From: Planctomycetia bacterium
Lineage (GTDB): Bacteria; Planctomycetota; Phycisphaerae; UBA1845; UTPLA1
Assembly: GCA_015200345.1 (NCBI GenBank)
Contig: CP054187.1
Span: 1,658,470-1,722,469 of the forward strand
Length of the DNA: 64,000 nt
Direction: 5' to 3'
In this document: one piece after another, positions 22,966 through 62,605 of the stretch
How the letters are laid out: each line of letters starts with the position of its first letter
How positions within the stretch are numbered: position 1 is the stretch's first letter
The notes under the pieces: generated by a model
What the model was told of the DNA's origin: nothing
What the model saw: only the letters and a program-made list of their open reading frames with translations
The model's database searches: none
Translations under genes and position numbers: made by a program

Positions 22966-24678
22966 TTAGGGGTTGCTATAGGTGAAATTCACATGATTGA
23001 CGCCGTGGCAGGTGAGCGTGCAGGAACCCTGGAATCGGCCCGTGTCGATGAAGCGGCGCTGACCGCCGACGATGCGCAAGTCAAAGTTGATGAGCGCGCT
23101 GTGGTTGGCCGGGCTGCCCGAGACACCGTGCGGCGCGTGGCACGACGAGCAGGGCGTGCGGCCGGTGACAACGTGCCGATTGTGGAAGCTGAAGCTCTGG
23201 TCGCCGAGGATGCTGGTGCGATCGTGGCAGCGATAGCACAGCGCGTAGGCCTGGGGCGATTCCATCGTGAAGTCGGCGGTTTCATAGTTTTCCACGAGCA
23301 GCCAATCGAAGCGTGAGCCGTGCGGCCCGTTCGGTCCGCCGCCGCCGAGGTTGCGCGCGTCGGGATTGTTGTGGCAGCTCTGGCAGCTCAAGACCTGGTG
23401 TGCGAATGGGTTGATCAGGCTGGGGACTTCGCCGGAGTTTCGCGCGGGGCTGACGACGGGATGAAGCGACGCGTTGGTCGGGAGGAACTGGCGGCGCACG
23501 TTGCCGAAGTTGTCACGCTGGCGGGGAATGCGGTCCTGCATGAACACGGGATTATCGCCGTGGCAGCGGAAGCAGACTTCGTAATAGTACCTCGCCCGGT
23601 CAGTCGGCGTACCGGCGACGGTGACGCCCTTCACGAACTCCATCGGCGGCGGCACAAGCACGCCGCGCGGCTCGAACACCGGCACGAGCGAGCCGATCGG
23701 GTTGTCGCGCACGGCATGGGGATTGTGGCAATCGACGCACTCGCTGTGCGGAGGCATCGCCAGGTGATTCTCCGCCGGGTCGTGCAGGTCGAGCAGGCGA
23801 TTGAATCGGTGCGCGCTACGCAGGTTCAGCACGCCCTGGATGTCGCGCCCGTTCAGGCCATTGTGGCAACTGATGCATAGCTCGCTGGGCCGGTCGTTCA
23901 ACAATCGCTCGCGGTGCTGCGCGTTGTGCGACGTATGGCATGAATAGCACGCGGCGTCGGCCATGGTCGCGAACGGCAGGGCCTCGCCGTTGGTGACGGT
24001 AACGGGCACCGAGCGCGGCGCAAGGGCGTGAGCGCTCATCTGCCAGCCGTCCATTTTGTGGCAGGTGTTGCAAAGCGCGCCCTGTCGCTGGGTGACGCGG
24101 AGAAAATCGCCCAGCTCGTTGTTATGCGGGTTGTGGCAGGCGGTGCATTCCATTTCGCCACGCTCGCCGAGCTTGATGCGCTGGGAGACCAGGTCGGGCG
24201 AGCGAAGCTGGTGATCGCGCGCCGCCAGTTGGCGATCAAATCGGAAGCCGATCGGATGATCGTCGGAGAGATCGTTCGTGAGATTCGAGCGACCCGAGGT
24301 CAGGAACGGCTGGTTCATCGGAATCGGATCGGTCGGCGGGCGACTCAACACCATGCCGAGCGCGATGGAGCCGTCGTGGCAGGAGAGGCACATCTTGCTC
24401 GGCCCGCCGGGTTGATCGATGCGGGCGTCGGTCGTGCTGCTCTGGTAGATGCGATAGTAGGTCGTGGGGTTGTAGCGGTTCCAGAGCGGGGCCTGCGGGC
24501 TGGCGTTGTGCGGCGTGTGGCAGAAGATGCAGACCTCGCCCTCGTCCAGCGCGCGGATCGTGCCGGGTCCGGTGGCCGAGAGATTGTGCACCGAGTTGAC
24601 GACGCTCTCATCGGCGCGGGCGGTGTGCGCCCATGCGGTCGTCAAGAACAAGACCATCGTGAGTCGTGTCGTTTTCAT
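22966..24678 (-). CDS. Secreted dodecaheme-type multiheme cytochrome c
   Basis: The 570-residue protein has a signal peptide (residues 1-22, ending ARA). I count eleven CXXCH heme sites, starting with CIFCH and CLSCH, plus one CTLTCH (CX3CH) near the C-terminus. Many sites follow the doubled-CXXCH layout with downstream HN or HNxH histidines (for example CTACHNPHNNELGDFL), as in periplasmic or surface electron-transfer cytochromes. There is no catalytic domain I recognise. The start overlaps the end of the NHL lipoprotein gene by four bases (ATGA), so the two are translationally coupled. It probably conducts electrons with its operon partners, the beta-barrel and the propeller. Confidence 0.9.
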   Translation of the reverse strand: MKTTRLTMVLFLTTAWAHTARADESVVNSVHNLSATGPGTIRALDEGEVCIFCHTPHNASPQAPLWNRYNPTTYYRIYQSSTTDARIDQPGGPSKMCLSCHDGSIALGMVLSRPPTDPIPMNQPFLTSGRSNLTNDLSDDHPIGFRFDRQLAARDHQLRSPDLVSQRIKLGERGEMECTACHNPHNNELGDFLRVTQRQGALCNTCHKMDGWQMSAHALAPRSVPVTVTNGEALPFATMADAACYSCHTSHNAQHRERLLNDRPSELCISCHNGLNGRDIQGVLNLRSAHRFNRLLDLHDPAENHLAMPPHSECVDCHNPHAVRDNPIGSLVPVFEPRGVLVPPPMEFVKGVTVAGTPTDRARYYYEVCFRCHGDNPVFMQDRIPRQRDNFGNVRRQFLPTNASLHPVVSPARNSGEVPSLINPFAHQVLSCQSCHNNPDARNLGGGGPNGPHGSRFDWLLVENYETADFTMESPQAYALCYRCHDRTSILGDQSFSFHNRHVVTGRTPCSSCHAPHGVSGSPANHSALINFDLRIVGGQRRFIDTGRFQGSCTLTCHGVNHVNFTYSNP

Positions 24679-25802
24679 GGCACGTTTTGCGTCGTCGGGG
24701 CATCGCCCGCTCCGAGAAACTGAAACACCTGCACCCGCCGATTGTACGTATCGGCGATCCAGATACGATCCCGCTCATCAATCGTGATGCCCGACGGCAG
24801 GTAAAACTCACCCGGACCGAGGCCCTCCTGGCCCCAGGCCATCAGCAATCGACCGTCGCGCGAAAAAATCTGCACGTTTTCGAACTGATTGTCCACGACG
24901 TACACATGGCCCTGCGAGTCGAAGGCAAGGTCGCGCGGCATCGAAAAATCTCCCGCAGCGTCGCCCTTCCGGCCGAACATGCCAAGCGGCGAGCCGGTCT
25001 CGGCCAGCAACTGAACGCGGAAATTCATCGAATCGGCCACGGCCATTCCGTAACGCGGATCAAACGTCAGGCCTGCGGGATAATTGAACTCGCCCTGCGA
25101 CGCGCCGCGCCGGCCGAGCGTCCGCTTCCGGGTGCCATCCCCCCCGATCACGTGACACACGTGGGCCGCGGAATCCAGGACAAACAAATCGCCGCTCGCC
25201 GGATGCACGGCAATGGCTGACGGCCGCTTCAATCCTTCGATGACAAGTGTTCGCCGATATCGACCATTCGAGTCAAACTCGAACACCCCGGGGCGTGCGC
25301 TATCCGCGACGAACAACGATTCACCGTGTAGCGCCAGGTCGATCGGAAACCCAAACGGCGCGCCGCCCGCCGATGTGATCGTCTGAAACTCCCGCGTTGC
25401 CACGTTCAACCGATACACAGCTCGCGCCTGGCCATCCGCCACGAAGACGACCTCCCCGCGCGCGGCGACCGCCGTCGGCGTCGAAAAGTTTGTCACCGGC
25501 GGCGGGCCTTCGAGGGCCGATTTGACGGCGGCCCAGCCGGTCGGGCGACGATCCAGCGACTGCTCACCGATTAATTCGCCGATGTAACGGATGCGCGGAA
25601 CATCGGGCGCCTTCGGCCAGACGATAGCCGGCGCGATGTCAGGAAAAACCGGTTTCTGGGGGCGCTGACAGGCCGCCATCGCGCCCAGCGCGAGGAAAGC
25701 CCAAACAAAGCGAGTGCGGTGCTGCCGATGCCCCGCCGATGAAACGCAGGCGAGACGCCCGTGCCACAAGTTGCCTTCGCGCGTAACCCATCGCATCGTC
25801 AT
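24675..25802 (-). CDS. NHL beta-propeller lipoprotein
   Basis: The 375-residue product starts at ATG 25802, which overlaps the stop of the beta-barrel gene (ATGA); the longer open frame is rejected for that reason. The signal ends at a lipobox (LGAMAAC near residue 45). From about residue 100 there are six NHL-type blades, with motifs such as RPSAIAVHPASGDLFVLDSA, GEFNYPAGLTFDPRYGMAVA and YLPSGITIDERDRIWIADTY. Such propellers bind proteins or ligands and have no catalytic residues. Its tight coupling to a beta-barrel upstream and a 12-heme cytochrome downstream suggests a structural or chaperone role in a cytochrome complex. Confidence 0.88.
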   Translation of the reverse strand: MTMRWVTREGNLWHGRLACVSSAGHRQHRTRFVWAFLALGAMAACQRPQKPVFPDIAPAIVWPKAPDVPRIRYIGELIGEQSLDRRPTGWAAVKSALEGPPPVTNFSTPTAVAARGEVVFVADGQARAVYRLNVATREFQTITSAGGAPFGFPIDLALHGESLFVADSARPGVFEFDSNGRYRRTLVIEGLKRPSAIAVHPASGDLFVLDSAAHVCHVIGGDGTRKRTLGRRGASQGEFNYPAGLTFDPRYGMAVADSMNFRVQLLAETGSPLGMFGRKGDAAGDFSMPRDLAFDSQGHVYVVDNQFENVQIFSRDGRLLMAWGQEGLGPGEFYLPSGITIDERDRIWIADTYNRRVQVFQFLGAGDAPTTQNVP

Positions 25803-27931
25803 GATCGCGGCTTTCCGATGATCGGTATCTCGCGGCGGACCTTGACCCACAGCGCGGCGGTGTTGTCGGTGCTTGTCGGCAGATCGAGCATATCGTATTC
25901 GGCTTCGACCAGCAGCGTGAACAGCCCCAGCTTCCACGAGACCGACGCCGTCAGGTCCACGCCGTTGGTCTCGCCGAAGAGGGAGTCGTTCTGGAAGCGG
26001 TAGAGCGCGGTGGCGTTGGCCTCGATGCTCGGCGCGAACGTGTAGCGATAGAACGCGCCGAGATCCAGCAACGTCGTATCGCGCGAGTCGAAGTTCTCGT
26101 TGCCATCGAAGCGAAAATGCGAAAGCGCTCCGCGCAGCGCCGCCTGCTGCTTCAGATCCTGTAACACCGTGACATCGCCGGTAAAGTGCCCAGCCTGGTA
26201 CGGATCGATGCCGTCGTGGTTGTACTCGTATTCCGCCGACGCGGCCCAGCGGGGCTTGCTGATCGCGACGCCGAGCCGGTGGCGGTTGATGTCGCGTTCC
26301 TGAAAAACGAGATAGCGATCATCCGACAGGTCTTCGTCCTGGAGCGACAGAGCGTAGTACGGCTCGATGCCGTTCTTGAACCGGTGCGCCAGGCGCAGAT
26401 CGATGCGATCGCGCGTCGTGCCGTAGTCGTTGAACGCGCGATACGAGTACGTCACCAGCACGGTCTGACCATCGACGATCATGCCGGTCGGGTTTCGCAC
26501 CAGTGACGTCAACTCGCCCTGCTTCACGATGGCGTAGTCGCGCCCGGCGAGAAACAAGCGCGACCGGTCAGCCGCCATGACCACGAGTGTCGCGAGGTTG
26601 ATGTTGCGCTGTGCGAGATACACCGGCAGCGGATCGCGGAAAGTAAGCGTCTCTTCAATCGTGATACCGTCTCGACGACCGTCGGACGTACGCGTCTGCG
26701 AGTGATGGTACGACAGATTCGCGCTGGACCGCCCCCAGGCGTTTTCCTTTGAGAAGGTCGAATTGAACATCGAGCCCCATTCGGTGGCGTCGGCGTTGCG
26801 GTCGGCGCGCTGCTCAAGGGCGTACAGGTTGATCGTGTTGGTCAACGATTTGAACAGCGTATGGGTCAGGCCGGCCTCACCGCGGAACGTCTCGGTCGAG
26901 AGGTCGAAGTAATTCTGCTTGAGGTACTGGGTGCGAAAGAGCGAGAAGAGATCATCGGTGTGCTGGAACCGCAGTTGCGGCGCGACTTCGACGGCGTCGC
27001 GCGGGAGATCGCCGCGCTCCTCCTCGACGCGCACGAACGTATCCAGCCGGCTGCGCCGGTCCTCGCCGAACTGGATCGCATCATTCAGGGCGAGGTAGTT
27101 GCGCGTCGTGGTGAACGAGTCCCGCGTGCCGGAGTAGCGGTCGTTGCGGTTCTCGTACTCGTAGTTGATGTTGAGCGAATGGTCCTCGGTGGGGTTCCAG
27201 GTCGCTTCGTAGCGCAGCGTGTCCTCGGCGAGTTCCTCGTCGTCGGTCAGATAGCGCGAATCACTGGTCAGATCGTCGTACAGGTGATCAAACGTCAACT
27301 GCATCGGCAGCTTCGGATCGTTGAAAATCAGCGCCGCGCCGTAGCGCTCCCGCGTGCGGTCCAGGCTCGGCAGAAACGGCCGCTGGAGCCGATCCCGCAG
27401 TTGCGAGGCATTCGCGGTCGCGGAGAGCCTGCCCTGCGGAAAAGCATGCAGACGAAGGTCGTACTCCAGCAACGTGCCGTCCGGATCGCGCGAAAGATCA
27501 AATCCCGGCCGCGATTCCTTGTAGTCCTCCTGCGAGAGTCCGCCTCGAATCATGGCGTCGTACAGCAGCACTTTTTCGCTGACGATGCTGCCGCTGGAGG
27601 AGAGGCCGAGGTATTCTTCAAATCGCGTGGACCGGTTCTTCTGGTCGTAGCGCGCGAAGGGCCCGCCGATGTCGGTGCGGACGGTCCGGCGCATGGCCTC
27701 GAAGTTCGCGCCGAGTTCAGCCGTCAGCTCCTCCACCTTCAGGAGGGGGCCGCGCGGCGATTGCAGGCTCAAGGGACCGGGCGACTCGGTCGTGGATTCG
27801 CCGGCCGACCCATCCGCTGCATCGGCTACGGCATGACGCGCCTCGCCGCTTGAAGCATCTGCCATCGCGGATGCAACGCATCCAACGAGCAGCAGGACGG
27901 CGACAAGGAACAGTGCTCTGCGAATCAGCAT
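25799..27931 (-). CDS. Predicted outer-membrane beta-barrel (candidate porin of a cytochrome conduit)
   Basis: The 710-residue protein has a signal peptide (MLIRRALFLVAVLLLVGC, then VASAMA; a lipobox reading is possible). Most of the remainder alternates polar and hydrophobic residues in strand-length segments rich in Tyr, Arg and Asp, such as YEATWNPTEDHSLNINYEYE and SFTTTRNYLALNDAIQFGED, which is typical of large outer-membrane barrels. No TonB-dependent plug is evident. It is the first gene of a four-gene operon with an NHL lipoprotein, a 12-heme cytochrome and a metalloprotease. By analogy with porin-cytochrome complexes it could house a cytochrome across the outer membrane. The sequence shows a barrel-like pattern only; the family is not identified. 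Confidence 0.7.
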   Translation of the reverse strand: MLIRRALFLVAVLLLVGCVASAMADASSGEARHAVADAADGSAGESTTESPGPLSLQSPRGPLLKVEELTAELGANFEAMRRTVRTDIGGPFARYDQKNRSTRFEEYLGLSSSGSIVSEKVLLYDAMIRGGLSQEDYKESRPGFDLSRDPDGTLLEYDLRLHAFPQGRLSATANASQLRDRLQRPFLPSLDRTRERYGAALIFNDPKLPMQLTFDHLYDDLTSDSRYLTDDEELAEDTLRYEATWNPTEDHSLNINYEYENRNDRYSGTRDSFTTTRNYLALNDAIQFGEDRRSRLDTFVRVEEERGDLPRDAVEVAPQLRFQHTDDLFSLFRTQYLKQNYFDLSTETFRGEAGLTHTLFKSLTNTINLYALEQRADRNADATEWGSMFNSTFSKENAWGRSSANLSYHHSQTRTSDGRRDGITIEETLTFRDPLPVYLAQRNINLATLVVMAADRSRLFLAGRDYAIVKQGELTSLVRNPTGMIVDGQTVLVTYSYRAFNDYGTTRDRIDLRLAHRFKNGIEPYYALSLQDEDLSDDRYLVFQERDINRHRLGVAISKPRWAASAEYEYNHDGIDPYQAGHFTGDVTVLQDLKQQAALRGALSHFRFDGNENFDSRDTTLLDLGAFYRYTFAPSIEANATALYRFQNDSLFGETNGVDLTASVSWKLGLFTLLVEAEYDMLDLPTSTDNTAALWVKVRREIPIIGKPRS

Positions 27932-28120: not shown

Positions 28121-28804
28121 ATGAAGCACACCGCGACAGATTGGCGTCCTGTTCGATTAGGGACAATCACGCTGGGTGCGGTATTTTGCGCGGTTCTTGT
28201 CGCCTGCGCCGCACGACCAGCCGCCCAAAACGCACCTCCAGATTCATCGGCGGAAACCGGCGGTGGACCCGCAGCCGTCGAAGAGCCGTCCGAGCTGTAC
28301 GCCGGCGGGCTGACCGGTAGCAAGCACGACTTCTCCTTGAGCGACGGGCGCTGGAAGGACCTCTGCACGCCCTGCCACACGCCGCACGAACCAACGCCGC
28401 CAACGGCAGCGCCCCCCGGCGCGCCGCCCGTTCGATTCGTGAGTTACGCGGCGGATCCCACGACCCTGGACCGCTCGTCGGTGCTGTGTCTAAGCTGCCA
28501 CGATGGCGTCACCGCGCAGGATGTGTTCAGCGGCGCGCACGCCCTCTCGTGGGCGACGCCGCTGGGGACGAGCACCCTGCCGATCAGCGGGCGGGTCAGC
28601 CACCCGATCGGCGTTCGGCTCCCGCTGGGCGACCCGACCTATCGCAGCCCGGCCGAAGTGCAGGCGAGCGGACGGATCAAGCTGCCGGGCGGGCGCGTGC
28701 AGTGCATCTCCTGCCACGATCCGCACAACACCGACCGGCATCCCGCGATGCTGGTTCAATCCAATCGCGGCAGCCAATTGTGCCTCGCATGTCATCGCAT
28801 TTGA
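28121..28804 (+). CDS. Tetraheme lipoprotein cytochrome c
   Basis: The 227-residue protein has a signal with a lipobox (AVLVAC near residues 24-29) and four CXXCH sites: CTPCH, CLSCH, CISCH and CLACH at the very C-terminus. The final segment, VQCISCHDPHNTDRHPAML then VQSNRGSQLCLACHRI, is nearly the same as that of the tetraheme protein at 56147-56854, so the two are paralogues. It is the first gene of a plus-strand pair; the following NHL gene overlaps its 3' end by 16 bases. It is probably a membrane-anchored periplasmic or outer-membrane electron carrier. Confidence 0.9.
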   Translation: MKHTATDWRPVRLGTITLGAVFCAVLVACAARPAAQNAPPDSSAETGGGPAAVEEPSELYAGGLTGSKHDFSLSDGRWKDLCTPCHTPHEPTPPTAAPPGAPPVRFVSYAADPTTLDRSSVLCLSCHDGVTAQDVFSGAHALSWATPLGTSTLPISGRVSHPIGVRLPLGDPTYRSPAEVQASGRIKLPGGRVQCISCHDPHNTDRHPAMLVQSNRGSQLCLACHRI

Positions 28805-29946
28805 AATTCCACCGAGCCGTCCTTGGCGCGACGCTGGCGGCGCTGCCGACGATGGTCTGCGGCTGCGCGAGCGGTGGGACCGCTTTTCGATCGCAGGTTT
28901 CATGGTACGCCGCCGCCTCGCCGGGTCTGAACAACTCATCGGATCAAGTAAATCAGACAACGGGGCCGCGTGCTCTGGCCCTCGGCAACCTGCGGTTTGG
29001 GCGGGAACCCTCCGAAACCCGGCAGGCATTGGCGGAATTCTTCCTCGGGGAGCGCATCGAGCGCGGCCCCGGTCTCGTCAAGCCCGGTGCAATCGCGCGA
29101 CATCGAGACGGATTGCTGATTTCCGACGCCGGGCTGGGCACGCTGGTTCGCTGGACTCCTGCCGCGCAAGCGCTTCAACCGGCGCTGGCCTCGACGGATC
29201 CGATTCGCGCTGCCGCCATCGCCGCCTGCGAAAACGGTGATTTTCTCGTCGCGATCCCCGCGGCGTCGGCGGTTCATCGGTACGACGCGCGCGGTCGGTT
29301 GATTCGAAGCTATTCGTTGCCGAGCGAGTTTCGACCGATGGGCGCGGCGCAGATCGGCGGCGAAATTTGGGTGACCAACGCGGCGCGACATGTCATTGAG
29401 GTCTTCGATTCGGCAAGTGGCTCGCATGGGCGCGCGATCGGGCGGCGCGGGCACGGACCGGGCGAGTTCAACCTGCCGCTGGGCATCGCGGCGTTGGCGA
29501 AGGATCATCCGCTCGCGGGCGGCGGCGCGGTGGTGGTGGACGCGTTCAACGCGCGTGTGCAGGTGCTTGATTCGAGCGGCCGATGGATGCACGACCTGGG
29601 CGGACCGGGCGATGTCACGGGTCGCTTTGGCAGGCCGATCGGGGCGGCCGTCGGACCGGATGGAGCGCTCTTCGTGCTTGATGCGGCCTCGCAGCGCGTG
29701 CACGCGTTCGACGGGCGAGGCAACGCCCTGCTGGCATTTGGTCGTCAGGCGACCGACGCACACTCGCTGCTGCTTCCGAGCGGGCTGTGCGTGGTGAGTT
29801 CGCCTGATCTGGCGGACGAGCTGCCGCGCGAGACGGGCCTTGCATTAAGACCTGCCTATTATATTTGGGTCTCGGAGCAAGTCGATCGGCCCGGAATACG
29901 GGCTTATGCGTGGTTTCCTGAAGCGGCCGGGCGCGTCGCGCCCTAG
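28789..29946 (+). CDS. NHL beta-propeller lipoprotein without heme domain
   Basis: The 385-residue product starts at ATG 28789, overlapping the tetraheme gene. A lipobox-like VCGCAS lies near residue 25. NHL-type blades follow, for example GEFNLPLGIAALA, GRFGRPIGAAVGPDGALFVL and LLPSGLCVV. It is homologous along its length (LGNLRF...LISDAGLGTLVRW; the terminal GIRAYAW) to the N-terminal half of the NHL-8-heme protein at 54153-56171, but it ends where that protein begins its hemes. Its stop overlaps the stop of the convergent small lipoprotein gene. Confidence 0.87.
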   Translation: MSSHLKFHRAVLGATLAALPTMVCGCASGGTAFRSQVSWYAAASPGLNNSSDQVNQTTGPRALALGNLRFGREPSETRQALAEFFLGERIERGPGLVKPGAIARHRDGLLISDAGLGTLVRWTPAAQALQPALASTDPIRAAAIAACENGDFLVAIPAASAVHRYDARGRLIRSYSLPSEFRPMGAAQIGGEIWVTNAARHVIEVFDSASGSHGRAIGRRGHGPGEFNLPLGIAALAKDHPLAGGGAVVVDAFNARVQVLDSSGRWMHDLGGPGDVTGRFGRPIGAAVGPDGALFVLDAASQRVHAFDGRGNALLAFGRQATDAHSLLLPSGLCVVSSPDLADELPRETGLALRPAYYIWVSEQVDRPGIRAYAWFPEAAGRVAP

Positions 29947-48790: not shown

Positions 48791-51700
48791 TCAACGCCCA
48801 CGGCGCGCGGGATCGTGAAAGAATAGGAATCGCTCGAGCGCGTCGAACCCGTGACAGGTCGTACACACATTCGGCGCGCGGAACGGGCGAAGCATGAGCC
48901 GGGCCGAGCGAAGCGCCTCGCGCGAGCGATCCGGACCGCTGAATTCCGCATCGGGCAGATACCCGTGCGGCGTGTGACAGGTGCGGCACGCGATCTGCCC
49001 CTGCGATGCGGGGCGGCCATTGACGTCGTAGAGCGGCAGATTCCCATCGCTCGGTCCGTCAAAGATGTTCAACATGGGCACGTCGGGATGGGTCGCGATC
49101 ATCGGCGGACGAGCCGTGCCGCCGTCGCGATGACAAGCTTCACAGCGCTGATCCGACGCGTGCATGGCCGCGAAGTTGATCGTCTCGCGCGGAGCGGCCG
49201 CCTGCGGCATCGCGCGGGGCCTTCCTGATTCCTCCACGACCGTGAGCGATCTCGGCCAGAGAAGATCGTCCTCGATGGCTGTGGGCATCGCGTGCACCGA
49301 ATGACAGGGCAGACACGCTTGCGCCGGCAGTTGCTTCGATTCGAACGTCGCAGCCGCGTGAGCGGTCAGGGGGATGGCCGATGCGTCGGCGTGACAGGTG
49401 ATGCAGAGGCTGCTCGCGGGCGCGCCGGCTGCGGTGCGCAGGAATTTGTGCGCCGCTCCGTCGGCGGCATGTGGATTGTGACAGGTGCGGCAGCCGACGG
49501 CGGACGCCTCGGTTGAGGCGGAGCGTGCGAGCGGCAAGCCGCCGGTCGCGAAACCGGCCGGCACGATGCGCGGGTGCATGGCCGCGTGATTGGACTGTTT
49601 CATGCGTTCGCCCTCGCCGCCATGACCCCAGGCCGCGCCGGGATGGCAGGCGATGCATGATCCGTCGGATGCGGCGTCGGCGGGGGACGCGGCGAAGGTA
49701 AAAAGTCCTTTGTCGTCTTTTCCATGCGGTCGGTGACAGGCAAGGCAGGTGTCTTCGCGAAGCGCAGCGGCCTGCGGCCATTGGTTTCCCGTGCTGCGAA
49801 AATCGTGCGGCCCGCCGGAGAGCGCCGCGTAATCGGCGTGGCATTTCAGGCACAAGCCTGGCGTCGGCTCACGAAGGAACTGCCCCAGCGCCGGACGATT
49901 CGGCTCATGCGGCCCGTGCGGATCGTGGCATTCGACGCAGGCGGCCTTCGGGTGATTGAAGCTCCCGAGCGCCTTCTCACCGGCGCAGCGGCCTTCCTGG
50001 TGGCAGGTGATGCACTTGCCGCCGCCGGGGTCGAGGTCGCTGATCTCCGGCGAGCGCGCGTAGCGATGAAACAGGTGGCATGAACTGCACGGCCCGCCCG
50101 TCTGGGCGGTCATGCCCAGCCGGTTGCGCTCCTCGGGGAAGGTTCTGCGCAGATCGTGCGGCGTGTTAAAGACAGATGTCTTCTCCGAATGGCAGCCGAC
50201 GCAGAACGAGCCGTCGGTCAGTTCGGCCGCGAGCATGAACCGCTCGCCCTTGCCGTGATGCAGTTTGTGACACGAGAGACAGATAAGCCGGTCCTCGGGG
50301 CCCAGGCGCGTGCCGAGCGCCGCGACGGCCGCCTTCTGCGCCGCGTTGGCGACCGGGCTAAGCGGGTGTTCGGTGTGATCGCCGTCGCGAAACATGCCCG
50401 GTCGCATCTGGTCGTGGCAGGAGAGGCACAGCTGATTGGACTCGGTGCCCATCACGAGCAGGTGATCGTGGGCGGCGCCGTGCGGCGTGTGGCAGACGTT
50501 GCAGGTCAGTTCGCGCGGATTCGGGCCGACTTTCGCGCCGGCGGCGATCAGATCATTCGGCACGGCCCAGGGCATGCCGCCGGTCGGGTGCGTGCCGCGC
50601 TGGGGTCCGCGGGTCTTGTCGGCGTGACAGGTGACGCACATTTCGCCCGAGGTGTTCAGCATTCTCAAAAAGACCGATGTCTTTAGATTGCCGGACAGGT
50701 CACCTCCCGCGTGCGCCGAATGACACGTTCGACAGGCAATCTTGCCGTCAACCAGCGGCAACTGCGGCGGGACGGTCATCTCCGGCAGCGGCACGATATC
50801 GGTCCGATGGCCGTGCTCCAGCCAGACGCGCCGGCGCGAATCGACGATCGATCCGTCGTGACACGACAGGCAGGTGTGCGGCTGGCTGACGTAGGGATGA
50901 ATCGGATCATCCGCGGGCGGGTCAATCAATTCCGTGCCGCGCTTCTGTGCCAGCGGCTCGACCCATTCCAGGTGGCAGACCGTGCAGGCCCGCGCCTGCC
51001 GCCCGACGACGCTGGGCCGCGAGGAATCAGGCTGTGCAGCCAAGCGATGCGGGCGGCCCGATTCGATTCGGCGAGTGATGTCCAGCTTTCGAACGCGGCA
51101 GGCGTCCAGTTCCACGACGTATAGATTGCCCGACGCATCAAACGCCATGCCCATGGGCGCGGCGAGCTTCAGGGGTTGTCCCGCCCCATCGCGCAGAACG
51201 TCGACGAAACGCCCCGTCGGCGTAAACACCTGCACGACCCCCATGACGCTGTCGCTCACCCAGACATTCCCATCGGCATCCAGCGCCACGCCCTTGGGGC
51301 GATACAGCATCCCCGGCTCGACGCCGTATTGCGCGATCGTTGTCACCACGCCGCCGGTATCGCTGAACACGCCGATGCGGCCGTTCAAGACATCCGTCAC
51401 ATACACATTCCCCCTCGCGTCCCGTCCCAGCATGAACGGATAGTGCATCTGCCCCCGCGCCTCGCCTTGGCGGCCGGCCAGCGCGTGCGTGCCTCGCTTG
51501 ACATCGTGACGAATCAGCACGTGTCGATTGTTGTCGACCGACCAGACCACTGCGCCATCCGGAGAGACGGCCACATCCGTCGGATCGGCCGGGTGGTCGT
51601 TCGGTCCGGCGGGCAAAGGAATGATACGAATCAGCTCGACGGGTGCGTCAGCGGCCACTAGGACCTTCGCGACGACGATCCGCGCGTTGCCTGCGTCAGC

Positions 51701-52126
51701 GATCCAGAGGTTGCCTGACGCATCGACATCAATGCCGACGGGATGAGACAGAGATTCGCTGCCGACGCGCCGAATCTCGCGGGCGATGTCGCCGCTGGCG
51801 TTGAATATCACGATTCGATCATTCACACCATCGACGACGAACACGCCTGCGTCGCGCGCGACAGCAACATCCGTCGGCATCAGCAGGCCCGGCGTGGACC
51901 GGTCGGTGAAGTCCAACGCGATTTGTGCCAGAAGTGGAACATCCGGCGTGTTCGACCCGGGCTGCGTCGTGGTAAAACCAGCAATCGGCGCGTCAGCATG
52001 CTGCGCAAAAATCCGCGCCACACAGAATAAACCGAGCCAGATCGCAACCACCAGAGAAAATCGACCCCCACGGTGCAGCGAGTGGGCATCGCGCGAAGTG
52101 AATACTCTGAAAAAACGCTGCGGCAT
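48791..52126 (-). CDS. NHL beta-propeller fused to a 20-heme cytochrome c
   Basis: The 1111-residue product starts at ATG 52126 with GAGG six bases upstream; an upstream open frame is antisense shadow. The signal region is near residues 20-42 (LVVAIWLGLFCVARIFAQ). Residues about 60-365 form an NHL propeller (LMPTDVAVARDAGVFVVDGV, LSHPVGIDVDASGNLWIADA, YRPKGVALDADGNVWVSDSV). From about residue 380 to 1090 I count 20 CXXCH sites, beginning CTVCH and ending CTTCH, many as doubled CXXCH units with downstream HPH or HGH histidines. It is unusually large for a doubled-CXXCH protein. It is divergent from the NapC-like gene, with a 95-bp shared region. A long-range electron carrier is the best inference. 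Confidence 0.9.
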   Translation of the reverse strand: MPQRFFRVFTSRDAHSLHRGGRFSLVVAIWLGLFCVARIFAQHADAPIAGFTTTQPGSNTPDVPLLAQIALDFTDRSTPGLLMPTDVAVARDAGVFVVDGVNDRIVIFNASGDIAREIRRVGSESLSHPVGIDVDASGNLWIADAGNARIVVAKVLVAADAPVELIRIIPLPAGPNDHPADPTDVAVSPDGAVVWSVDNNRHVLIRHDVKRGTHALAGRQGEARGQMHYPFMLGRDARGNVYVTDVLNGRIGVFSDTGGVVTTIAQYGVEPGMLYRPKGVALDADGNVWVSDSVMGVVQVFTPTGRFVDVLRDGAGQPLKLAAPMGMAFDASGNLYVVELDACRVRKLDITRRIESGRPHRLAAQPDSSRPSVVGRQARACTVCHLEWVEPLAQKRGTELIDPPADDPIHPYVSQPHTCLSCHDGSIVDSRRRVWLEHGHRTDIVPLPEMTVPPQLPLVDGKIACRTCHSAHAGGDLSGNLKTSVFLRMLNTSGEMCVTCHADKTRGPQRGTHPTGGMPWAVPNDLIAAGAKVGPNPRELTCNVCHTPHGAAHDHLLVMGTESNQLCLSCHDQMRPGMFRDGDHTEHPLSPVANAAQKAAVAALGTRLGPEDRLICLSCHKLHHGKGERFMLAAELTDGSFCVGCHSEKTSVFNTPHDLRRTFPEERNRLGMTAQTGGPCSSCHLFHRYARSPEISDLDPGGGKCITCHQEGRCAGEKALGSFNHPKAACVECHDPHGPHEPNRPALGQFLREPTPGLCLKCHADYAALSGGPHDFRSTGNQWPQAAALREDTCLACHRPHGKDDKGLFTFAASPADAASDGSCIACHPGAAWGHGGEGERMKQSNHAAMHPRIVPAGFATGGLPLARSASTEASAVGCRTCHNPHAADGAAHKFLRTAAGAPASSLCITCHADASAIPLTAHAAATFESKQLPAQACLPCHSVHAMPTAIEDDLLWPRSLTVVEESGRPRAMPQAAAPRETINFAAMHASDQRCEACHRDGGTARPPMIATHPDVPMLNIFDGPSDGNLPLYDVNGRPASQGQIACRTCHTPHGYLPDAEFSGPDRSREALRSARLMLRPFRAPNVCTTCHGFDALERFLFFHDPARRGR

Positions 52127-52221
52127 CGTGGACCTCGGCGGTCGATTCGCTGAACATGATAGACGCATGACCGCGCCTTGCCTATCGACGAAGCAGCGCG
52201 CGCGGCACGAGGAGCGTACGC

Positions 52222-54075
52222 ATGGACCAAACGCCGCCGCTTGATTCGAACAACCATGTCGACTCCAACGTGACCGGTTCGATCGGCGAGAACGCGCCGC
52301 GAAACCCAGGAGGATCCGTGAACCATCCAGCCGCACCGACGAAGAAAAAACGTTCACGCATGAAGCTGCTGGTCGTCTCGGGGCTGGGGCTGATGGTCTT
52401 TGCGGCAGCGAGTATCGGCGGTGCGGAGTATTACACATCGCGGCCGAACTTCTGCGGGTCATGCCACGTGATGGACCCGTACTTTGATTCGTGGTCGCAC
52501 GATGTCCACGGGAAAAAAGCCGGCGTTCTGTGCGTTGAATGCCACTACGCCCCCGGCGAGCAGCACACGGTTCGCGCCAAGTTCCGCGGGCTGTCGCAGG
52601 CAGCGAGCTACTTCAGCGGGCGATACGGCGCGGGTCGACCGCGCGCCCACGTCAACAACGGAAGCTGCCTCACCTCGGAGTGTCACGGTGATGGCAACGG
52701 CACGCGTCTGGCCGATGAGCACATGAACAAGTCGCTGCTGATCGGCGAGCCTCGCACCGAAACGCGCCTCATCGCCGGCCTGCCGACCGAGGTCGAGCGG
52801 AAGCCGACCGTGCGATTTGTCCACGCCAAGCACCAACTCATCGACGAGCGCATCACGCTGAACAAGCGCGATCTCACGGTCGTTGGTGATCGCCTGCGCA
52901 AGGCCCTCCCGCCCGAGGCGTTCAAGCGGGTGGAAGCCGCCGTGCAATCGGTAAAGGATGCCTCCCGTCGCCAGGCCGATCTGATCGCCTTGTTGAAGCA
53001 ACTGGGACACGACGCCCACTCCGCCGACGCGCTGGAGTTCATGCGGCTGGAGCACATGCGCGTTCGGCTGGCGCAGTTGGCCGATCTGAACTGCGCCGCG
53101 TGTCACACCTACGACGCCGGTGGTTCGAATCACTTCCGCGTCGATACGACGACGTGCTTCACCTGCCATTTCACGCACCAGGCGTTCAATCGTGACACGG
53201 GCGAATGCCTGAAGTGCCACGAGCCGCCGACAAGGCAGATCGTGGTGCATGCCCCGGTCGCCGGCACGAGTACCACGGCAGCCGCCGGCGCGCTGATGGA
53301 CCACCAGGACATCGTCGCGCGCGGGATTGACTGCGCCAGTTGCCACGCGGACGTGATCCAGGGGCAGTCGGACGTGACGGCGCGCGACTGCACGCACTGC
53401 CACGACCAGTCAAAGTTCATCGAGGAGTTTGAGGCCCGCACGACCCAGACCGTCGAGGAATACCACCGCGTCCACGTCGGCGGGCAGCACGCGCGATGCA
53501 CCGATTGCCACCGCACGATTCATCACGCGTTGATCGAGCCGGAGTTCGTCGGAAGCCGCGCCGAATTTCTCAAGCCCGTCGTCGACGACTGCCAGCATTG
53601 TCACCCCTCGCACCACCGCGAGCAGGTCGAGTTGCTCATGGGCGTCGGCGGCGCGGGGATCGACCGGCCGATGCCCAATGCGATGTTCGGCTCGCGGCTG
53701 AACTGCAAGGCGTGCCACAGCGAACCGGGGAGCGATTTCAAGGGCGACCCGCTGGTGAAGGCGACGGAGGAAACCTGTCTCAAATGCCACGGAGAAGACT
53801 ACCGGACGGTCTTCCAGCAGTGGCGCGGCGAGATCGCCAGCCAGCTCGCCGAGGCGCGGGCGGCGCTGCAACGCGTGGACGATCGCATCAAGGCGGTCGG
53901 CGTGCGGGCGCAATCGCTGCCGCCGCGGATTCGCGACGGGATCGAAAACGCGCGAACAAACATCCGTCTGATCGAAACCGGCAACGGCGTGCACAATCGC
54001 ACCTATGCGGTCTCGTTGCTGGATCTCGCCTCGCGTGATCTGGACGCAGCCCTGGCGGAGTTGAGTCGGTTGTAG
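52222..54075 (+). CDS. NapC/NirT-like membrane-anchored multiheme cytochrome
   Basis: The 617-residue product has a cytoplasmic basic start, one membrane helix near residues 47-68, and then FCGSCHVMDPYFDSWSHDVH and LCVECHYAPG, the NapC/NirT-family quinol-dehydrogenase pattern. I count 11 CXXCH sites plus one CLTSECH (CX4CH) near residue 154. The heme-rich part ends near 520; the last 90 residues are helical and charged, perhaps a coiled coil. ATG 52222 has GAGGAG upstream; GTG 52318 has a perfect AGGAGG and is an equally plausible start. NapC-type proteins oxidise membrane quinol and pass electrons to periplasmic partners, here most likely the neighbouring multiheme proteins. Confidence 0.88.
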   Translation: MDQTPPLDSNNHVDSNVTGSIGENAPRNPGGSVNHPAAPTKKKRSRMKLLVVSGLGLMVFAAASIGGAEYYTSRPNFCGSCHVMDPYFDSWSHDVHGKKAGVLCVECHYAPGEQHTVRAKFRGLSQAASYFSGRYGAGRPRAHVNNGSCLTSECHGDGNGTRLADEHMNKSLLIGEPRTETRLIAGLPTEVERKPTVRFVHAKHQLIDERITLNKRDLTVVGDRLRKALPPEAFKRVEAAVQSVKDASRRQADLIALLKQLGHDAHSADALEFMRLEHMRVRLAQLADLNCAACHTYDAGGSNHFRVDTTTCFTCHFTHQAFNRDTGECLKCHEPPTRQIVVHAPVAGTSTTAAAGALMDHQDIVARGIDCASCHADVIQGQSDVTARDCTHCHDQSKFIEEFEARTTQTVEEYHRVHVGGQHARCTDCHRTIHHALIEPEFVGSRAEFLKPVVDDCQHCHPSHHREQVELLMGVGGAGIDRPMPNAMFGSRLNCKACHSEPGSDFKGDPLVKATEETCLKCHGEDYRTVFQQWRGEIASQLAEARAALQRVDDRIKAVGVRAQSLPPRIRDGIENARTNIRLIETGNGVHNRTYAVSLLDLASRDLDAALAELSRL

Positions 54076-54152
54076 GAAGTGAACGAAGTGGCCGCCGGTT
54101 GGATACCGGCGCCACAGGGTGCATGAGGAGCAGTGCCCACTCTACGCCAGCC

Positions 54153-56171
54153 TCACTTCTCATGACACGCCAGGCAGAGCGTGGCGCTGGGGACGCGCAG
54201 CGCCGCGTGGGCATCTTCCGCCGCGACCGACCGTTGCCCGAGATCCGAGCCGGCGGGAAACAATTCCGGCTGATGCGGGTTATGACAGGTGTAGCAAGTA
54301 ACGCGGTCGCCGCCCAGGGGCAGGCCCGACAAGGTATCACCCGAGCCGATTGTTGACGCATCCGCCACCGCGCGACTGGATGCCAGCCAGTTGCGGACCT
54401 CATCCGTCACAGGTCGATCCACGTGGCCGCGCTCGGAGACGTCCCAATGCCGGACGTGACATGCGAGGCACCCCTGCGACGACTCCGTCCGCAGCAGCGA
54501 ATGCCCGCGCCGCGCGCCATCGGCCGGCACGTCGGGAGCGTCCGTATGACAAAACAAACACGTGCGTGAATTGACCGCGCCGCTTGCATCGACCTGCCGG
54601 TGCGGACTGAACTGCCACGAGGCATCCTCCACGTGGCAGGTGCGGCAATAGGAATCAGCCCGATCCGATTCGTACCCGCGCAGCATCGCCGGATTGTCCG
54701 CCGGCCGCCGCGCCCCCGCATCACAATGTTGACGAATGTCGTGACACGTCAGACAGGTCAGCCGGCCCGCGTCGGTCGGCCAGTCTTCGGGCGTTGTCAC
54801 CGTGGCCGTCCGCGCGAGCCTTCCCGTCGGGTGCGGTTCGTCGTGGGCCTTTCTGCCCTCGTGGCAGGCGAGGCATGTTTGATCGGCCTTCGCAACGGGA
54901 ATCGCCTGCGGCGCGCCGTCGCCTGAAGCGTGACACGCGTTGCACTGCGTGGACGACCAGTGCGGATTGATCGCCGGCTCGACGCCCTCCACCAGCGGAC
55001 GCGATCGGACGGGTGGAGCAGCGATCCGGGCCGTCGCGGCGTGGTCGCGGCCCCACGCGTACGCGCGCAGCCCCGGTTCGACGTAGCGCTCGGCGACAAC
55101 GATGTAGTAGTCGGCGTCGAATCCATCCGGCGGCGCGGTCGCCTCGCCCGGCAAGTGTGACACAACGGCCAGACTGGAAGGCGAAACCAGCTTCTGTGAT
55201 TCGTCGTCGGCGTCGCCAAAGACCGCGATCACTTCGCCGCGATCATCAAACGCCTGCACGCGCCCCAGCTTCGCATCGACGACGAACAACGTACCATCCG
55301 GCCCGAAGCCGGCATCGCGAGGCAGGGAAAAGCAGCCGATCCCGTCTCCGGCGCGCCCAATCGTCCGCTGCCATGTCCCATCGGGCGCGAACCGTTGCAC
55401 GCGATGATTCATCGTATCGACGATGCATACCCCGCCATCGGGCGACACCGCGAGATTCGTCGGATAACGAAACTCGCCCGAGGCGTCGCCGTTTCGCCCG
55501 ATGGAACGAAGCCATTTGCCCGACGCGCCGTGGTAAACCTCGATGCGATGGGCCGTCAGATTGCTCACCCAAAGTTCTTCACCGACGAACGCCAATCCGC
55601 CGGAGCGAAACTCCACGCCCGCCGGCGCTGCGCACGAGGTCTCGTTCCCGGCCGCGTCGAGGATCGTGACTTCACTCCCTGCGACCCCGGAACAGGCGAC
55701 CGCCAGACTGCCATCGGGCGCGGTCGCGCAGGCGAGCGGAGAACACGCCTTCTGCCACGATCGCATCGAGGCAGAGGACCGATCGCCGACAGACCAGAAA
55801 AGCAAGTCGTTCCGTTCGGCATCGACGACAACCAAATCATGCTCCGCCGTCGCGCGAACGTGAATCGGCTTTCCAAGTTCCTTTGTCGGCGAATCGTCGA
55901 CGCCGAACACCAGCGACGCCAGCCCATCGATCCGGGGGCCCTGCGTCCGCGGCATCCGAAGATTGCCCAGCGGCGCCGCGCTGCGAGGTACGATCGGCTC
56001 ACGCGGTGCGGCTTTCGCACCTGCCACCGGCGCGGATAGGCCCGCCGTCTCGGACGATGCCCCCGACGACAGACGCCGTTCGCAGCCGCCGAGCGCGATT
56101 CCCATCAGCACGGCCAACGCCAGCGTGAGCCGCAGCGCGTGGCCGATCAGAGTCGATGGCACGACAGGCAT
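54153..56171 (-). CDS. NHL beta-propeller fused to octaheme cytochrome, lipoprotein
   Basis: The 672-residue protein has a lipobox (GIALGGC near residue 29), an NHL propeller from about residue 65 to 390 (GEFRYPTNLAVSPDGGVCIV; FSLPRDAGFGPDGTLFVVDA), then eight CXXCH sites from about residue 409 (CNACH) to the C-terminus (CLACHEK). The propeller half is homologous to the heme-less NHL protein at 28789-29946, including the end of that protein (GLRAYAW). The start overlaps the upstream tetraheme gene by 25 bases. The same gene order (tetraheme then NHL) is found at 28121-29946. Confidence 0.9.
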   Translation of the reverse strand: MPVVPSTLIGHALRLTLALAVLMGIALGGCERRLSSGASSETAGLSAPVAGAKAAPREPIVPRSAAPLGNLRMPRTQGPRIDGLASLVFGVDDSPTKELGKPIHVRATAEHDLVVVDAERNDLLFWSVGDRSSASMRSWQKACSPLACATAPDGSLAVACSGVAGSEVTILDAAGNETSCAAPAGVEFRSGGLAFVGEELWVSNLTAHRIEVYHGASGKWLRSIGRNGDASGEFRYPTNLAVSPDGGVCIVDTMNHRVQRFAPDGTWQRTIGRAGDGIGCFSLPRDAGFGPDGTLFVVDAKLGRVQAFDDRGEVIAVFGDADDESQKLVSPSSLAVVSHLPGEATAPPDGFDADYYIVVAERYVEPGLRAYAWGRDHAATARIAAPPVRSRPLVEGVEPAINPHWSSTQCNACHASGDGAPQAIPVAKADQTCLACHEGRKAHDEPHPTGRLARTATVTTPEDWPTDAGRLTCLTCHDIRQHCDAGARRPADNPAMLRGYESDRADSYCRTCHVEDASWQFSPHRQVDASGAVNSRTCLFCHTDAPDVPADGARRGHSLLRTESSQGCLACHVRHWDVSERGHVDRPVTDEVRNWLASSRAVADASTIGSGDTLSGLPLGGDRVTCYTCHNPHQPELFPAGSDLGQRSVAAEDAHAALRVPSATLCLACHEK

Positions 56172-56854
56172 AGCGCGCTCCGTTCATTGGACTTGACCAG
56201 CATAGCCGGGTGACCACCCGCATGATGAGGATCGTGACACGACACGCATTGCACGCGCCCCTCGGGCAGCCGGATGCGCCCGTCGCGCGTGACGGCGTTC
56301 GTGGCCCGATAGCGCGGGTGATCGGAAGGATAGCGTCCGCCGATCGGGTGGCCGGCCAGTGCCGCGGAACGTTCCTCGCCGGGTTCGAAGCGCGCGAGAC
56401 GCGCGGCGTGTGCCGTGGTAAATACATCTGTCGCGATAACACCATCGTGGCAGCCCAGGCACACGAGGCTGTGGCGATCCAGCTCACGATCCGCATCCTG
56501 CGCCAGCACGGCGGCCGCGCGAGGGAGTCGATCCGCCGGCGGCCGCGCCGCGCCGTCCGTCATGCCTTCGGGCGTGTGACAGGTGAGGCACAGGCTTCGC
56601 GCGTCGCCACGGCCGTTGGAGAAATCATGCGGTCCGCCGAGTAAGCGGCTGGCGTAGGAGGCGCTTTGCGCCGGTAGCGATGCCGCCGATCGCGACGCCG
56701 ATTCCTCTCGGCCGGATCGCGTCGCCTCGGTCCGGACCGGCCCCGGCGATTCCAGGCAGGCCGTCACGAGCGTGTGCGCAGCCGCCGCACACGCCAGCAT
56801 CCACACGCTTGGGCGCGGGCCTCCGCTCGCTCTGCATCGATGGGGAATCGCCAT
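56147..56854 (-). CDS. Tetraheme lipoprotein cytochrome c (paralogue of the 28121 gene)
   Basis: The product has about 235 residues from ATG 56854; the frame is open further upstream but that part looks like chance sequence. The signal ends in a lipobox-like LVTAC. Four CXXCH sites are present: CLTCH, CLGCH, CVSCH and the C-terminal CLSCHRL. The last 40 residues (RVQCVSCHDPHHAGGHPAML then VKSNERSALCLSCHRL) closely match the tetraheme protein encoded at 28121-28804. The LLGGPHDFSNGRGDARSLCLT segment fits doubled-CXXCH proteins. The gene overlaps the start of the NHL-octaheme gene. Confidence 0.88.
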   Translation of the reverse strand: MAIPHRCRASGGPRPSVWMLACAAAAHTLVTACLESPGPVRTEATRSGREESASRSAASLPAQSASYASRLLGGPHDFSNGRGDARSLCLTCHTPEGMTDGAARPPADRLPRAAAVLAQDADRELDRHSLVCLGCHDGVIATDVFTTAHAARLARFEPGEERSAALAGHPIGGRYPSDHPRYRATNAVTRDGRIRLPEGRVQCVSCHDPHHAGGHPAMLVKSNERSALCLSCHRL

Positions 56855-57026
56855 GGCAAGCGTCAATCGTATGGAAGCGACCGAGCGGGGGCAATCAGTA
56901 CCGGAACAGGCGATTCGCAGAAACCGGAAATATTGCGCGATTCCACGCACGGCTTGCCGCGGAGGGGTTTCGCGAATAAGTTGATCCTACGCAACGCATT
57001 TCAGGAAGAAAAGGAGCCGTGAACTC

Positions 57027-57845
57027 ATGCCGCGCCGAATTCCATCCAACTCCATGCCATTCGTTCGCACGCGCATCTTGCGCCGGGTAATAGCCTGTGT
57101 CTCCTCCATCGCCGCCGCGTTGTTCCTCGCGGCCGCTGCCTGCGACAAGCAGCCCGCGCCGCCGCCCGCGAAGCCGACGGCTCCGCAAACCGCCGACAAG
57201 GATCTCGAAGCCCTTCGGGATAAAGTCGTCGGGCAACCGGGCAATGCCGCGCTTCCGCCGAATCACCCGCCGATCGGCGGCCAGCCCGCAGCCGCCAGCG
57301 CTCCCGCGCAGGATGGGATGCCGCCGGGGCACCCGCCGATCAATGCCGCGCGACCGGCCGCGCCCTTCGCAGCAATGAGCGCCGACCCACCGAAGTATGA
57401 TGTCCCCGAAGATTGGAAGGCCCAGCAGCCACGAACTCCGATGCGCAAGGCACAGTACGCGCTGCCGGGAGATGCCGGCGATGGGGAGATGATCCTCTTT
57501 TATTTCGGTCAAGGTGAAGGCGGCGATATTGAATCCAATCTTGCGCGATGGAAAGCGATGTTCGCGACAGCCGATGGCCAGCCGGTGCCGGAAGACGCCT
57601 GCAAGGTGGAGCGCCTCACCGTGAACGATTTGAAAGTCACCACGCTGGACGTCTCGGGCACTTACCGCGAGCCGGCGATGATGAACCCGCAGGCGCCGCC
57701 CGAGCGGCCGGGCTATCGCATGTTGTGCGCGATCGTGGAAATGCCCAACGGCAACTGGTTCTTCAAGGGGACCGGGCCAGCCGCCACGATGGCGCGCCAT
57801 GAAGCGTCGTTTCGCAAACTGGTTCAGTCCTTGAAATCCAAATAG
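57027..57845 (+). CDS. Lipoprotein with PPxHPPI repeats, unknown function
   Basis: The 272-residue protein has a lipobox-like LAAAAC near residue 39, followed by a Pro/Ala-rich linker with two His-containing repeats (LPPNHPPIGG and MPPGHPPINA near 76-112). The C-terminal 150 residues form a compact domain (YDVPEDWKAQQPRTPMRKAQ, EMILFYFGQGEGG, GNWFFKGTGPAATMARHEAS) that I do not recognise by name. AAGGAG lies ten bases before the ATG. It sits between the cytochrome island and the cbb3 cluster on the same strand as the latter; metal binding by the HPP repeats is only a guess. Confidence 0.7.
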   Translation: MPRRIPSNSMPFVRTRILRRVIACVSSIAAALFLAAAACDKQPAPPPAKPTAPQTADKDLEALRDKVVGQPGNAALPPNHPPIGGQPAAASAPAQDGMPPGHPPINAARPAAPFAAMSADPPKYDVPEDWKAQQPRTPMRKAQYALPGDAGDGEMILFYFGQGEGGDIESNLARWKAMFATADGQPVPEDACKVERLTVNDLKVTTLDVSGTYREPAMMNPQAPPERPGYRMLCAIVEMPNGNWFFKGTGPAATMARHEASFRKLVQSLKSK

Positions 57846-58122: not shown

Positions 58123-58761
58123 ATGGACCCCAGGACCAGCGCGAGCGAAGCCAAGCAGCGAGAAATCGACGCGCTCCAGCAGCGATTGGCGGAGCTGCAA
58201 GCGGACCTCGCCGTGGTAAGTCAGCACATGGACTGGGTTCCACGGCAGTATTACACGACCTATCACATTCTCGCCGGCATGGTGCTGGGGCTGGCCGGCG
58301 CGATCACCAGCCTGCTGTTCAACATCATCGGCGCGGCGATGGTCGGCAAGCACCCGCTGGAGTTGATCCGCGTATACCTCACCTTCCCGATGGGCGAGAA
58401 GGCCCTGGAGGTGCAGAGCGGGTTCGTGCTGGCGGCAGGTTGCTGCCTCTATCTTGGCACCGGGATGATCGGCGGGATACCGTTCCACATGATCTTGAGC
58501 CGCTATTTTGACCGCGCCGGCGGCGGCAAACGGTTCGTCGTCGCGTCGGTCCTGGCGCTGGGTGTCTGGCTGATCAACTACTATGGGTTGATCGCGTGGC
58601 TGCAACCGGCCCTGATCGGCGGCAACTGGATTCTGGAGCGCGTGCCGGTCTATGTCGCAATAATGACACATCTCATCTTCGGCTGGACGCTGCTGGCCGT
58701 CGACCAGTGGGGGCGTTTTGTCCCGCGCGCCGCGCGATACTCGGGGTCCGCCGCGTCATGA
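58123..58761 (+). CDS. Four-helix membrane protein of a cbb3 oxidase cluster
   Basis: The 212-residue protein has an N-terminal coiled-coil-like stretch (EIDALQQRLAELQADLAVVS near 14-33) and then four hydrophobic helices (about 48-70, 100-122, 140-160, 178-198). No cofactor ligands are obvious. It is the first gene of the oxidase cluster and overlaps the diheme cytochrome gene by four bases (ATGA). I do not recognise the family; an assembly or anchoring role is inferred from the position. Confidence 0.7.
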   Translation: MDPRTSASEAKQREIDALQQRLAELQADLAVVSQHMDWVPRQYYTTYHILAGMVLGLAGAITSLLFNIIGAAMVGKHPLELIRVYLTFPMGEKALEVQSGFVLAAGCCLYLGTGMIGGIPFHMILSRYFDRAGGGKRFVVASVLALGVWLINYYGLIAWLQPALIGGNWILERVPVYVAIMTHLIFGWTLLAVDQWGRFVPRAARYSGSAAS

Positions 58762-59795: not shown

Positions 59796-59837
59796 CACCA
59801 CGCGCCCTGACCGGCGCTCACCGAACCGGATCGCACC

Positions 59838-61259: not shown

Positions 61260-61280
61260 TTCCCGGAGGGTTCGGACCGC

Positions 61281-61967
61281 ATGTTTGAATCGAAAGCAGG
61301 CGTGTTTCTCATCGCGGGGATCGGCTTCTTCGCGCTCTCGTTCCTCGTCATGGGACTGCTGCCCTGGACGATCTACTACAACGAGCCGGAGCTGACGGTC
61401 GATCAGATCGCCGCCAAGGGGATCCTCCCCGATTTTGTCGACCTGGCCGAACGTTTCCCCGATCAGTTTAAGGATTACTTCGGCGAGGTCAGCGAAAAGT
61501 CCTTTGCCGAAGCACTGGCGCTGGGCCACAAAATCTACGTTGCAGAGGCCTGCTGGCATTGCCATTCCCAGTTCATCCGGCCTGTCTCGAACGAGGACCT
61601 TCGCTGGGGGCCGGTCTCGCACGCCCTGGAGTACCAGAATCGCTTGCAGCGCCCGGTGCTCTTCGGCACGCGGCGCGTCGGGCCGGACCTCTCGCGAGAA
61701 GGCGGGGTGCGCAGCAACGACTGGCACATCGCACATTTCTGGGATCCGACCAGTGTCACGCCCAGCTCGGTCATGCCCTCCTACAAGTGGTTCTTCGACG
61801 GTGACGGCTATCCGAACAAGCGCGGCATGGCGATCATCACGTACGTCCAATGGCTGGGAAGCTGGCTGAAGGAATATCCGTACTATCATGGGGATGGACC
61901 CAGCGGACCGACCACGCAGCCGGCCTATCCGCCGCGAACGGCCGCCAGCCAGCCCGCCGCCGGATGA
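61281..61967 (+). CDS. ccoO: cbb3-type cytochrome c oxidase subunit II (monoheme)
   Basis: The 228-residue protein has one N-terminal helix (residues 7-29) and a periplasmic cytochrome c domain with CWHCHSQFIRPV at 91 and a Met ligand in SVMPSYKWFF near 163, the FixO/CcoO pattern. It feeds electrons from a c-type donor to CcoN. A Pro/Thr/Ser tail follows residue 205. Located directly after ccoN. Confidence 0.94.
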   Translation: MFESKAGVFLIAGIGFFALSFLVMGLLPWTIYYNEPELTVDQIAAKGILPDFVDLAERFPDQFKDYFGEVSEKSFAEALALGHKIYVAEACWHCHSQFIRPVSNEDLRWGPVSHALEYQNRLQRPVLFGTRRVGPDLSREGGVRSNDWHIAHFWDPTSVTPSSVMPSYKWFFDGDGYPNKRGMAIITYVQWLGSWLKEYPYYHGDGPSGPTTQPAYPPRTAASQPAAG

Positions 61968-61984
61968 GAAAAGGAGCCGACACC

Positions 61985-62487: not shown

Positions 62488-62605
62488 CGGCCTGATCGGA
62501 AGAATCGAAACAAGAGCATGAGTTCTCCCCTCGCTAAGAGTTCGTCCACCAGGCTCGGGCCGAATTGGATCCGGGCTTTATACTTCGCTCGTTAGCGAGC
62601 CGACC

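Follow-up and report, generated by a model that had tools for sequence, protein, structure and literature searches.

Four adjacent genes for multiheme cytochromes lie at positions 48791-56854 (the island) of a 64,000-nucleotide stretch of DNA from a Planctomycetia bacterium (contig CP054187.1, positions 1,658,470 to 1,722,469 of the forward strand), and they raise the question of where so many hemes would take electrons from and where they would deliver them. This stretch, called here the window, is part of a 3.88 Mb single-contig genome and contains a second cluster of such genes, the first locus (22966-29946). Our analysis predicts that the two clusters probably belong to a quinone-to-surface electron conduit, with the island as its inner half and the first locus as its outer half. 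The predicted conduit is well supported because the 20-heme gene of the island, H20, adjoins either of two quinol-side modules in related genomes and occurs almost only where the gene for a large barrel protein, BB, occurs. A first-pass annotation of this DNA had proposed a trans-envelope electron pathway; that idea is supported here and is strengthened by the barrel, by tetrahemes of the OmcE family and by a second quinol-side module in the same system. The argument is built on computed gene content, conservation of hemes and their ligands, the fold of the barrel, homology to OmcE and gene linkage.

The island would provide the inner-membrane and periplasmic half of the conduit together with a pair of surface lipoproteins, and the first locus would provide the outer-membrane half. 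Quinol would be oxidised by NapC12 or by a CbcL-like cytochrome b/multiheme pair whose genes lie outside the window, and the electrons would pass to the secreted H20, which would bridge the periplasm. They would then cross the outer membrane via a Uet-type complex of BB and the 12-heme cytochrome A12, accompanied by NHL lipoproteins, and would exit at the surface through OmcE-family tetrahemes and N8. The cellular locations and the order of flow are inferred, and the extracellular partner would be a mineral, humics or another cell. The genes concerned are these:

H20, 48791..52126, minus strand: secreted NHL propeller followed by 20 CXXCH, about 1111 residues; putative periplasmic/outer-membrane bridging cytochrome
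H20-NapC12 gap, 52127..52221, no strand: 95 bases between divergent genes; arrangement kept in most relatives with both genes
NapC12, 52222..54075, plus strand: N-terminal transmembrane anchor, NrfH/NapC-like part (CHxM, CX4CH), then an additional multiheme part, making 12 heme sites; putative quinol dehydrogenase
N8, 54153..56171, minus strand: NHL propeller fused to 8 heme sites; predicted lipoprotein
H4b, 56147..56854, minus strand: OmcE-family tetraheme with one distal histidine replaced by glutamate; predicted lipoprotein
S272, 57027..57845, plus strand: predicted lipoprotein carrying PPGHPPI motifs; in several relatives a neighbour of H20 on the same strand
A12, 22966..24678, minus strand: 12-heme cytochrome (11 CXXCH and CX3CH), UetJ-like; N-terminal 200 or so residues homologous to OmcE
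N1, 24675..25802, minus strand: NHL lipoprotein; start/stop overlaps with the barrel and A12 genes
BB, 25799..27931, minus strand: 710-residue outer-membrane beta-barrel with about 26 long strands
H4a, 28121..28804, plus strand: OmcE-family tetraheme with all four distal histidines; predicted lipoprotein
N2, 28789..29946, plus strand: NHL lipoprotein; lacks a heme part and is paralogous (37%) to the NHL part of N8

Heme sites and the question of catalysis

The first-pass annotation had counted 20, 12, 8 and 4 heme sites in the four adjacent genes, 44 with one CX4CH included, and 60 once the 12 and 4 sites of the first locus were added; by motif count the first figure is exact and the second agrees. 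NapC12 has 11 CXXCH and CLTSECH (its CX4CH), A12 has 11 CXXCH and CTLTCH (its CX3CH), and H4a has four sites. The domain assignments also stand: NHL repeats exceed the Pfam cut-off in two proteins, the two NHL-heme fusions, one protein is NapC/NirT-like (Cytochrom_NNT, PF03264; 44.7 bits against a cut-off of 24.1), and N8 and H4b are the two probable lipoproteins. The motifs are real sites and not chance occurrences, since they are invariant across homologues: all 20 in H20 are kept in 15 sequences at 37-87% identity, and all 12 in NapC12, the CX4CH among them, in 18 sequences at 31-91% identity. There is also a gene for cytochrome c assembly.

There are 23 conserved distal histidines for the 20 hemes of H20 and 14 for the 12 hemes of NapC12, a number sufficient for nearly all of them, so these could be mostly bis-histidine hemes. 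A motif scan of the window's proteins found no CXXCK, the catalytic heme motif. The supply of conserved distal histidines and the lack of CXXCK together favour electron transfer over catalysis, and so bear on whether these genes could instead encode a periplasmic or outer-membrane respiratory enzyme that reduces nitrogen or sulfur oxides at catalytic multihemes. In its NapC/NrfH-like part the system does resemble the quinol dehydrogenase of nitrite reduction, and a third locus in the same genome encodes cytochrome c554-like multihemes; against this, the NrfH, TorC, NrfB and DmsE models gave matches only below their cut-offs, and the island is linked to a large barrel and to OmcE-family proteins. 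As an NrfH nitrite reductase subunit NapC12 scored 45.7 bits, below the NCBIfam equivalog cut-off of 134.2, and none of the linked proteins has the CXXCK of an NrfA partner. With no CXXCK and all of these models below cut-off, we rejected a catalytic nitrite or sulfur enzyme, a reading that we regard as very improbable.

Gene linkage and the quinol-side entry

In order-level relatives the genes recur as sets. Set (a) is BB-N1-A12, with overlapping stop and start codons in the window; set (b), usually divergent from (a), is H4-N8, or H4, NHL and 8-heme proteins encoded by separate genes; set (c) is the divergent pair H20 and NapC12, to which S272 is often added directly next to H20; and set (d) is a CbcL-like protein, a 2-3-heme membrane-anchored partner and c554-like multihemes. 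All or most of these sets lie in one stretch in genomes G021, G039 and G051. In the window's own genome, set (a) and a tetraheme-NHL pair are found at 22.9-29.9 kb, set (c) and a second such pair form the island, and set (d) lies in the third locus, at about 2.744-2.751 Mb (L236:7730-14460), which encodes the CbcL-like protein, its 2-3-heme partner and c554-like proteins with 8-9 and 7 hemes. This third locus rules out that all multihemes of the genome are encoded inside the window. We likewise discarded the island as a self-contained four-gene system, its homologues being linked to first-locus genes and to the CbcL-like pair.

Among 61 genomes, some of them drafts in which genes can be missed, H20 was found in 33, the barrel in 44, the CbcL-like protein (strong matches) in 32 and NapC12 in 20. 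The barrel is present in 32 of the 33 genomes with H20 and in 12 of the 28 without it; for the CbcL-like protein the figures are 31 of 33 and 1 of 28, and a single genome has NapC12 without H20. Fisher p values for the pairs H20-barrel, NapC-H20 and H20-CbcL range from 5e-6 to 7e-14 with common descent ignored. The conserved neighbourhood of the NapC-like gene, which the first-pass annotation had taken as a test of its proposal, holds in part: NapC12 adjoins H20 in 14 of the 20 genomes that have it but is absent from 14 of the 33 H20 genomes. Twelve of these 14 carry the CbcL-like protein, which makes NapC one of two possible entries, and the CbcL-like gene lies 1-2 kb from H20 on the same strand in G006, G014, G025, G035, G038, G050 and G053. 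These observations suggest that H20 can take electrons from either quinol-side module, and thus predict that one conserved 20-heme protein can pair with either of the two.

With the NapC12 profile NrfH was the sole PDB match, and the hydrophobic N-terminal anchor and FCxxCHxM are kept in 18 homologues and aligned with NrfH. The CbcL-like protein joins a multiheme part to a cytochrome b561 domain, a make-up like that of CbcL, and its 2-3-heme partner has a membrane anchor. Relatives of NapC12 with 16-21 CXXCH are found in various phyla, among them Bipolaricaulota, WOR-3, Acidobacteriota and Eisenbacteria, and are frequently encoded next to a 9-heme protein (L146-L194), and proteins of about 1080 residues with 42 CXXCH are encoded near 18-heme relatives of NapC12 in metagenome-assembled genomes (MAGs) of Eisenbacteria (L187, L190).

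The NHL part of H20 matches TRIM71 (E 1.8e-45). The nearest named records with orthologues are Phycisphaerae/Planctomycetota MAGs, and in 392 genomes sampled evenly across the phylum, with scoring limited to each genome's best candidates, there was no further H20-like match at E <= 1e-150; the NHL-20-heme fusion therefore seems, by these searches, to be confined to this lineage.

The barrel, the OmcE family and known conduits

BB is, by its AlphaFold2 model, a large outer-membrane beta-barrel of about 26 long strands (predicted local distance difference test score, pLDDT, 85.5; predicted template modelling score, pTM, 0.70). Its fold matches, which include LptD, TonB-type receptors and MtrB, have low template modelling scores; it has no Pfam match, the MtrB_PioB profile included, and no PDB sequence match. 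Its partner A12 has a profile that matches OmcE of the Geobacter filament (PDB 7TFS; PMC12954529) at E 6.5e-44. The H4 profile matches the same chain at E 6.4e-27 over residues 17-232 of 232 with four CXXCH, and the H4 and A12 profiles match one another at E 7e-38. On profile evidence, H4a, H4b and the first 200 or so residues of A12 all belong to the OmcE family. The four distal histidines, in OmcE order, are all kept in H4a and in the A12 N-terminus, and three are kept in H4b, which alone among 24 aligned OmcE-family tetrahemes has glutamate at the CHTPH distal histidine. The same change is present in its sister-species orthologue, and H4b may possibly have an open or methionine-ligated heme.

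H4a and H4b are 47% identical and N2 and N8 37%, making two paralogous tetraheme-NHL pairs; in a tree, H4a lies near barrel-linked members of the family, and only the sister species joins H4b on its long branch. A12 homologues from Nitrospirota, Acidobacteriota and an Eisenbacteria MAG have NHL genes as neighbours, and several have tetrahemes as well, so the A12-NHL-tetraheme cassette is widespread.

We know of no account that settles how OmcE-type nanowires are joined to an outer-membrane electron chain. The OmcE-like domain of A12 might be a built-in first wire subunit on which H4a and H4b dock, so that the barrel complex is a socket for an OmcE-type chain or filament; the NHL proteins would then be assembly or surface-binding parts, and H20 the feeder that spans the periplasm. 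This elaboration of the conduit is quite unlikely as it stands. If true, the built-in subunit would be the means by which a cytochrome nanowire attaches to the membrane, and the conserved barrel/12-heme pair with its OmcE-like start is a testable candidate for that joint.

The claim of the first-pass annotation that no similar system had been described was too strong, and most parts of this one are of known kinds. The Uet conduit of Ca. Tenderia and some Gallionella comprises the beta-barrel UetC, the 11-12-heme UetJ, the tetraheme UetA and the NHL proteins UetHI (PMC10734462). By gene content the first locus matches it, with a beta-barrel, an 11-12-heme protein with doubled CXXCH, a tetraheme and two NHL genes; here, however, NapC12, the NHL-20-heme protein and the NHL-8-heme protein are added. 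No open reading frame of the window has three CXXCH, as the triheme genes UetDEG would, and no prolyl isomerase (UetB) was found among the neighbouring genes tested with Pfam, a scan that covered part of the window's genes. The H4 family and the A12 N-terminus align with OmcE over nearly its whole chain and its four CXXCH, but H4a and H4b have lipoboxes and the A12 domain is fused to eight more hemes. NapC12 shares the transmembrane anchor and the NrfH-like part with CHxM of the NapC/NirT/NrfH and ImcH-type proteins and differs in having an additional multiheme part joined on (12 sites, one of them CX4CH). As in Mtr and Pio systems, a large outer-membrane barrel is linked to multihemes and MtrB is among its fold matches, but the barrel here lacks an MtrB Pfam match and a PDB sequence match, and no DmsE/MtrA or OmcA/MtrC model exceeded its cut-off. 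In Desulfovibrio ferrophilus, multihemes encoded beside NHL proteins (DFE_0448-0451, DFE_0461-0465) have been proposed to act at the outer membrane (PMC9769857); unlike the present system, those clusters have no apparent porin, and their deletions gave no Fe(III) phenotype. Published reports also cover undecaheme porin clusters, other porin clusters that include ImcH/NapC-like proteins, and porin-cytochrome genes in Planctomycetota (PMC13264449, PMC10732223).

Two fusions are new, the NHL-20-heme protein and the NHL-8-heme lipoprotein, and so is their occurrence together with NapC12 in Phycisphaerae. Also new are the ties between such a conduit and the NapC12 and CbcL-like modules in that class, and a 12-heme protein that begins with an OmcE-like domain. 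The fusions, the module linkage and the OmcE-like start of A12 are undescribed in the literature that we searched, outside which most subscription papers lay. Predicted extracellular electron transfer is thereby extended to an uncultured Phycisphaerae lineage.

Direction of flow and neighbouring genes

The same proteins could in principle run inward, taking up electrons from Fe(II), Mn(II), conductive minerals or a partner cell, with a cbb3 oxidase as terminal acceptor. The Uet system is known from cathode-oxidising Tenderiales, with UetHI, UetC, UetA and UetJ (PMC10734462), inward flow having been proposed for it in Ca. Tenderia, and cbb3-type CcoN and CcoO genes and a diheme cytochrome lie beside the island at 58.1-62.0 kb. 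NapC-type proteins, moreover, can work in both directions (CymA/MtoC), which counts for uptake. Set against this, modules of the CbcL-like and NapC kinds are characteristic of Geobacter systems that work outward, and no cbb3 genes were recognised beside the island in the same-genus genome G001, which leaves a functional coupling of island and oxidase unsupported. RuBisCO is absent from this genome and present in only 5 of 61 relatives, so there is no sign of Calvin-cycle lithoautotrophy. We consider uptake fairly unlikely; for the direction of the electrons taken by itself, the absence of RuBisCO and the two quinol-side modules lead us to favour outward flow slightly.

Several findings weigh against the quinone-to-surface conduit. 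The strongest caution comes from D. ferrophilus, whose reduction of Fe(III) oxide was not impaired when multiheme genes linked to NHL genes were deleted (PMC9769857). The barrel occurs in 12 genomes that have no H20, and its likeness to the MtrB fold is low (template modelling score 0.35-0.38, 8% identity). Structure prediction, which the first-pass annotation had recommended for the NHL-heme fusions, gave a confident propeller across most of residues 61-350 of H20, but its heme part was poorly modelled (mean pLDDT 50.8). The cbb3 oxidase that adjoins the island may mean inward flow; in the sister species it does not stand beside the system.

Gene boundaries in the island needed revision. The listed reading frame of H20 (48791-52462) starts at 52462, giving a 241-base overlap antisense to the 5' end of the NapC12 gene, and we rejected this start; the ATG at 52126 is plausible and is followed by a clear signal peptide. 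The H4b gene probably starts at 56854, the end coordinate given in the first-pass annotation, although its listed frame (56147-56950) runs further. The S272 gene (57027-57845) should be added to the island because several relatives have its homologue next to the 20-heme gene in the same orientation; S272 is without a Pfam match and is conserved beside H20 in relatives. Beyond it, the window at 58123-64000 holds genes for a diheme lipoprotein (58758), CcoN (59838) and CcoO (61281), and then a P-type ATPase (62606).

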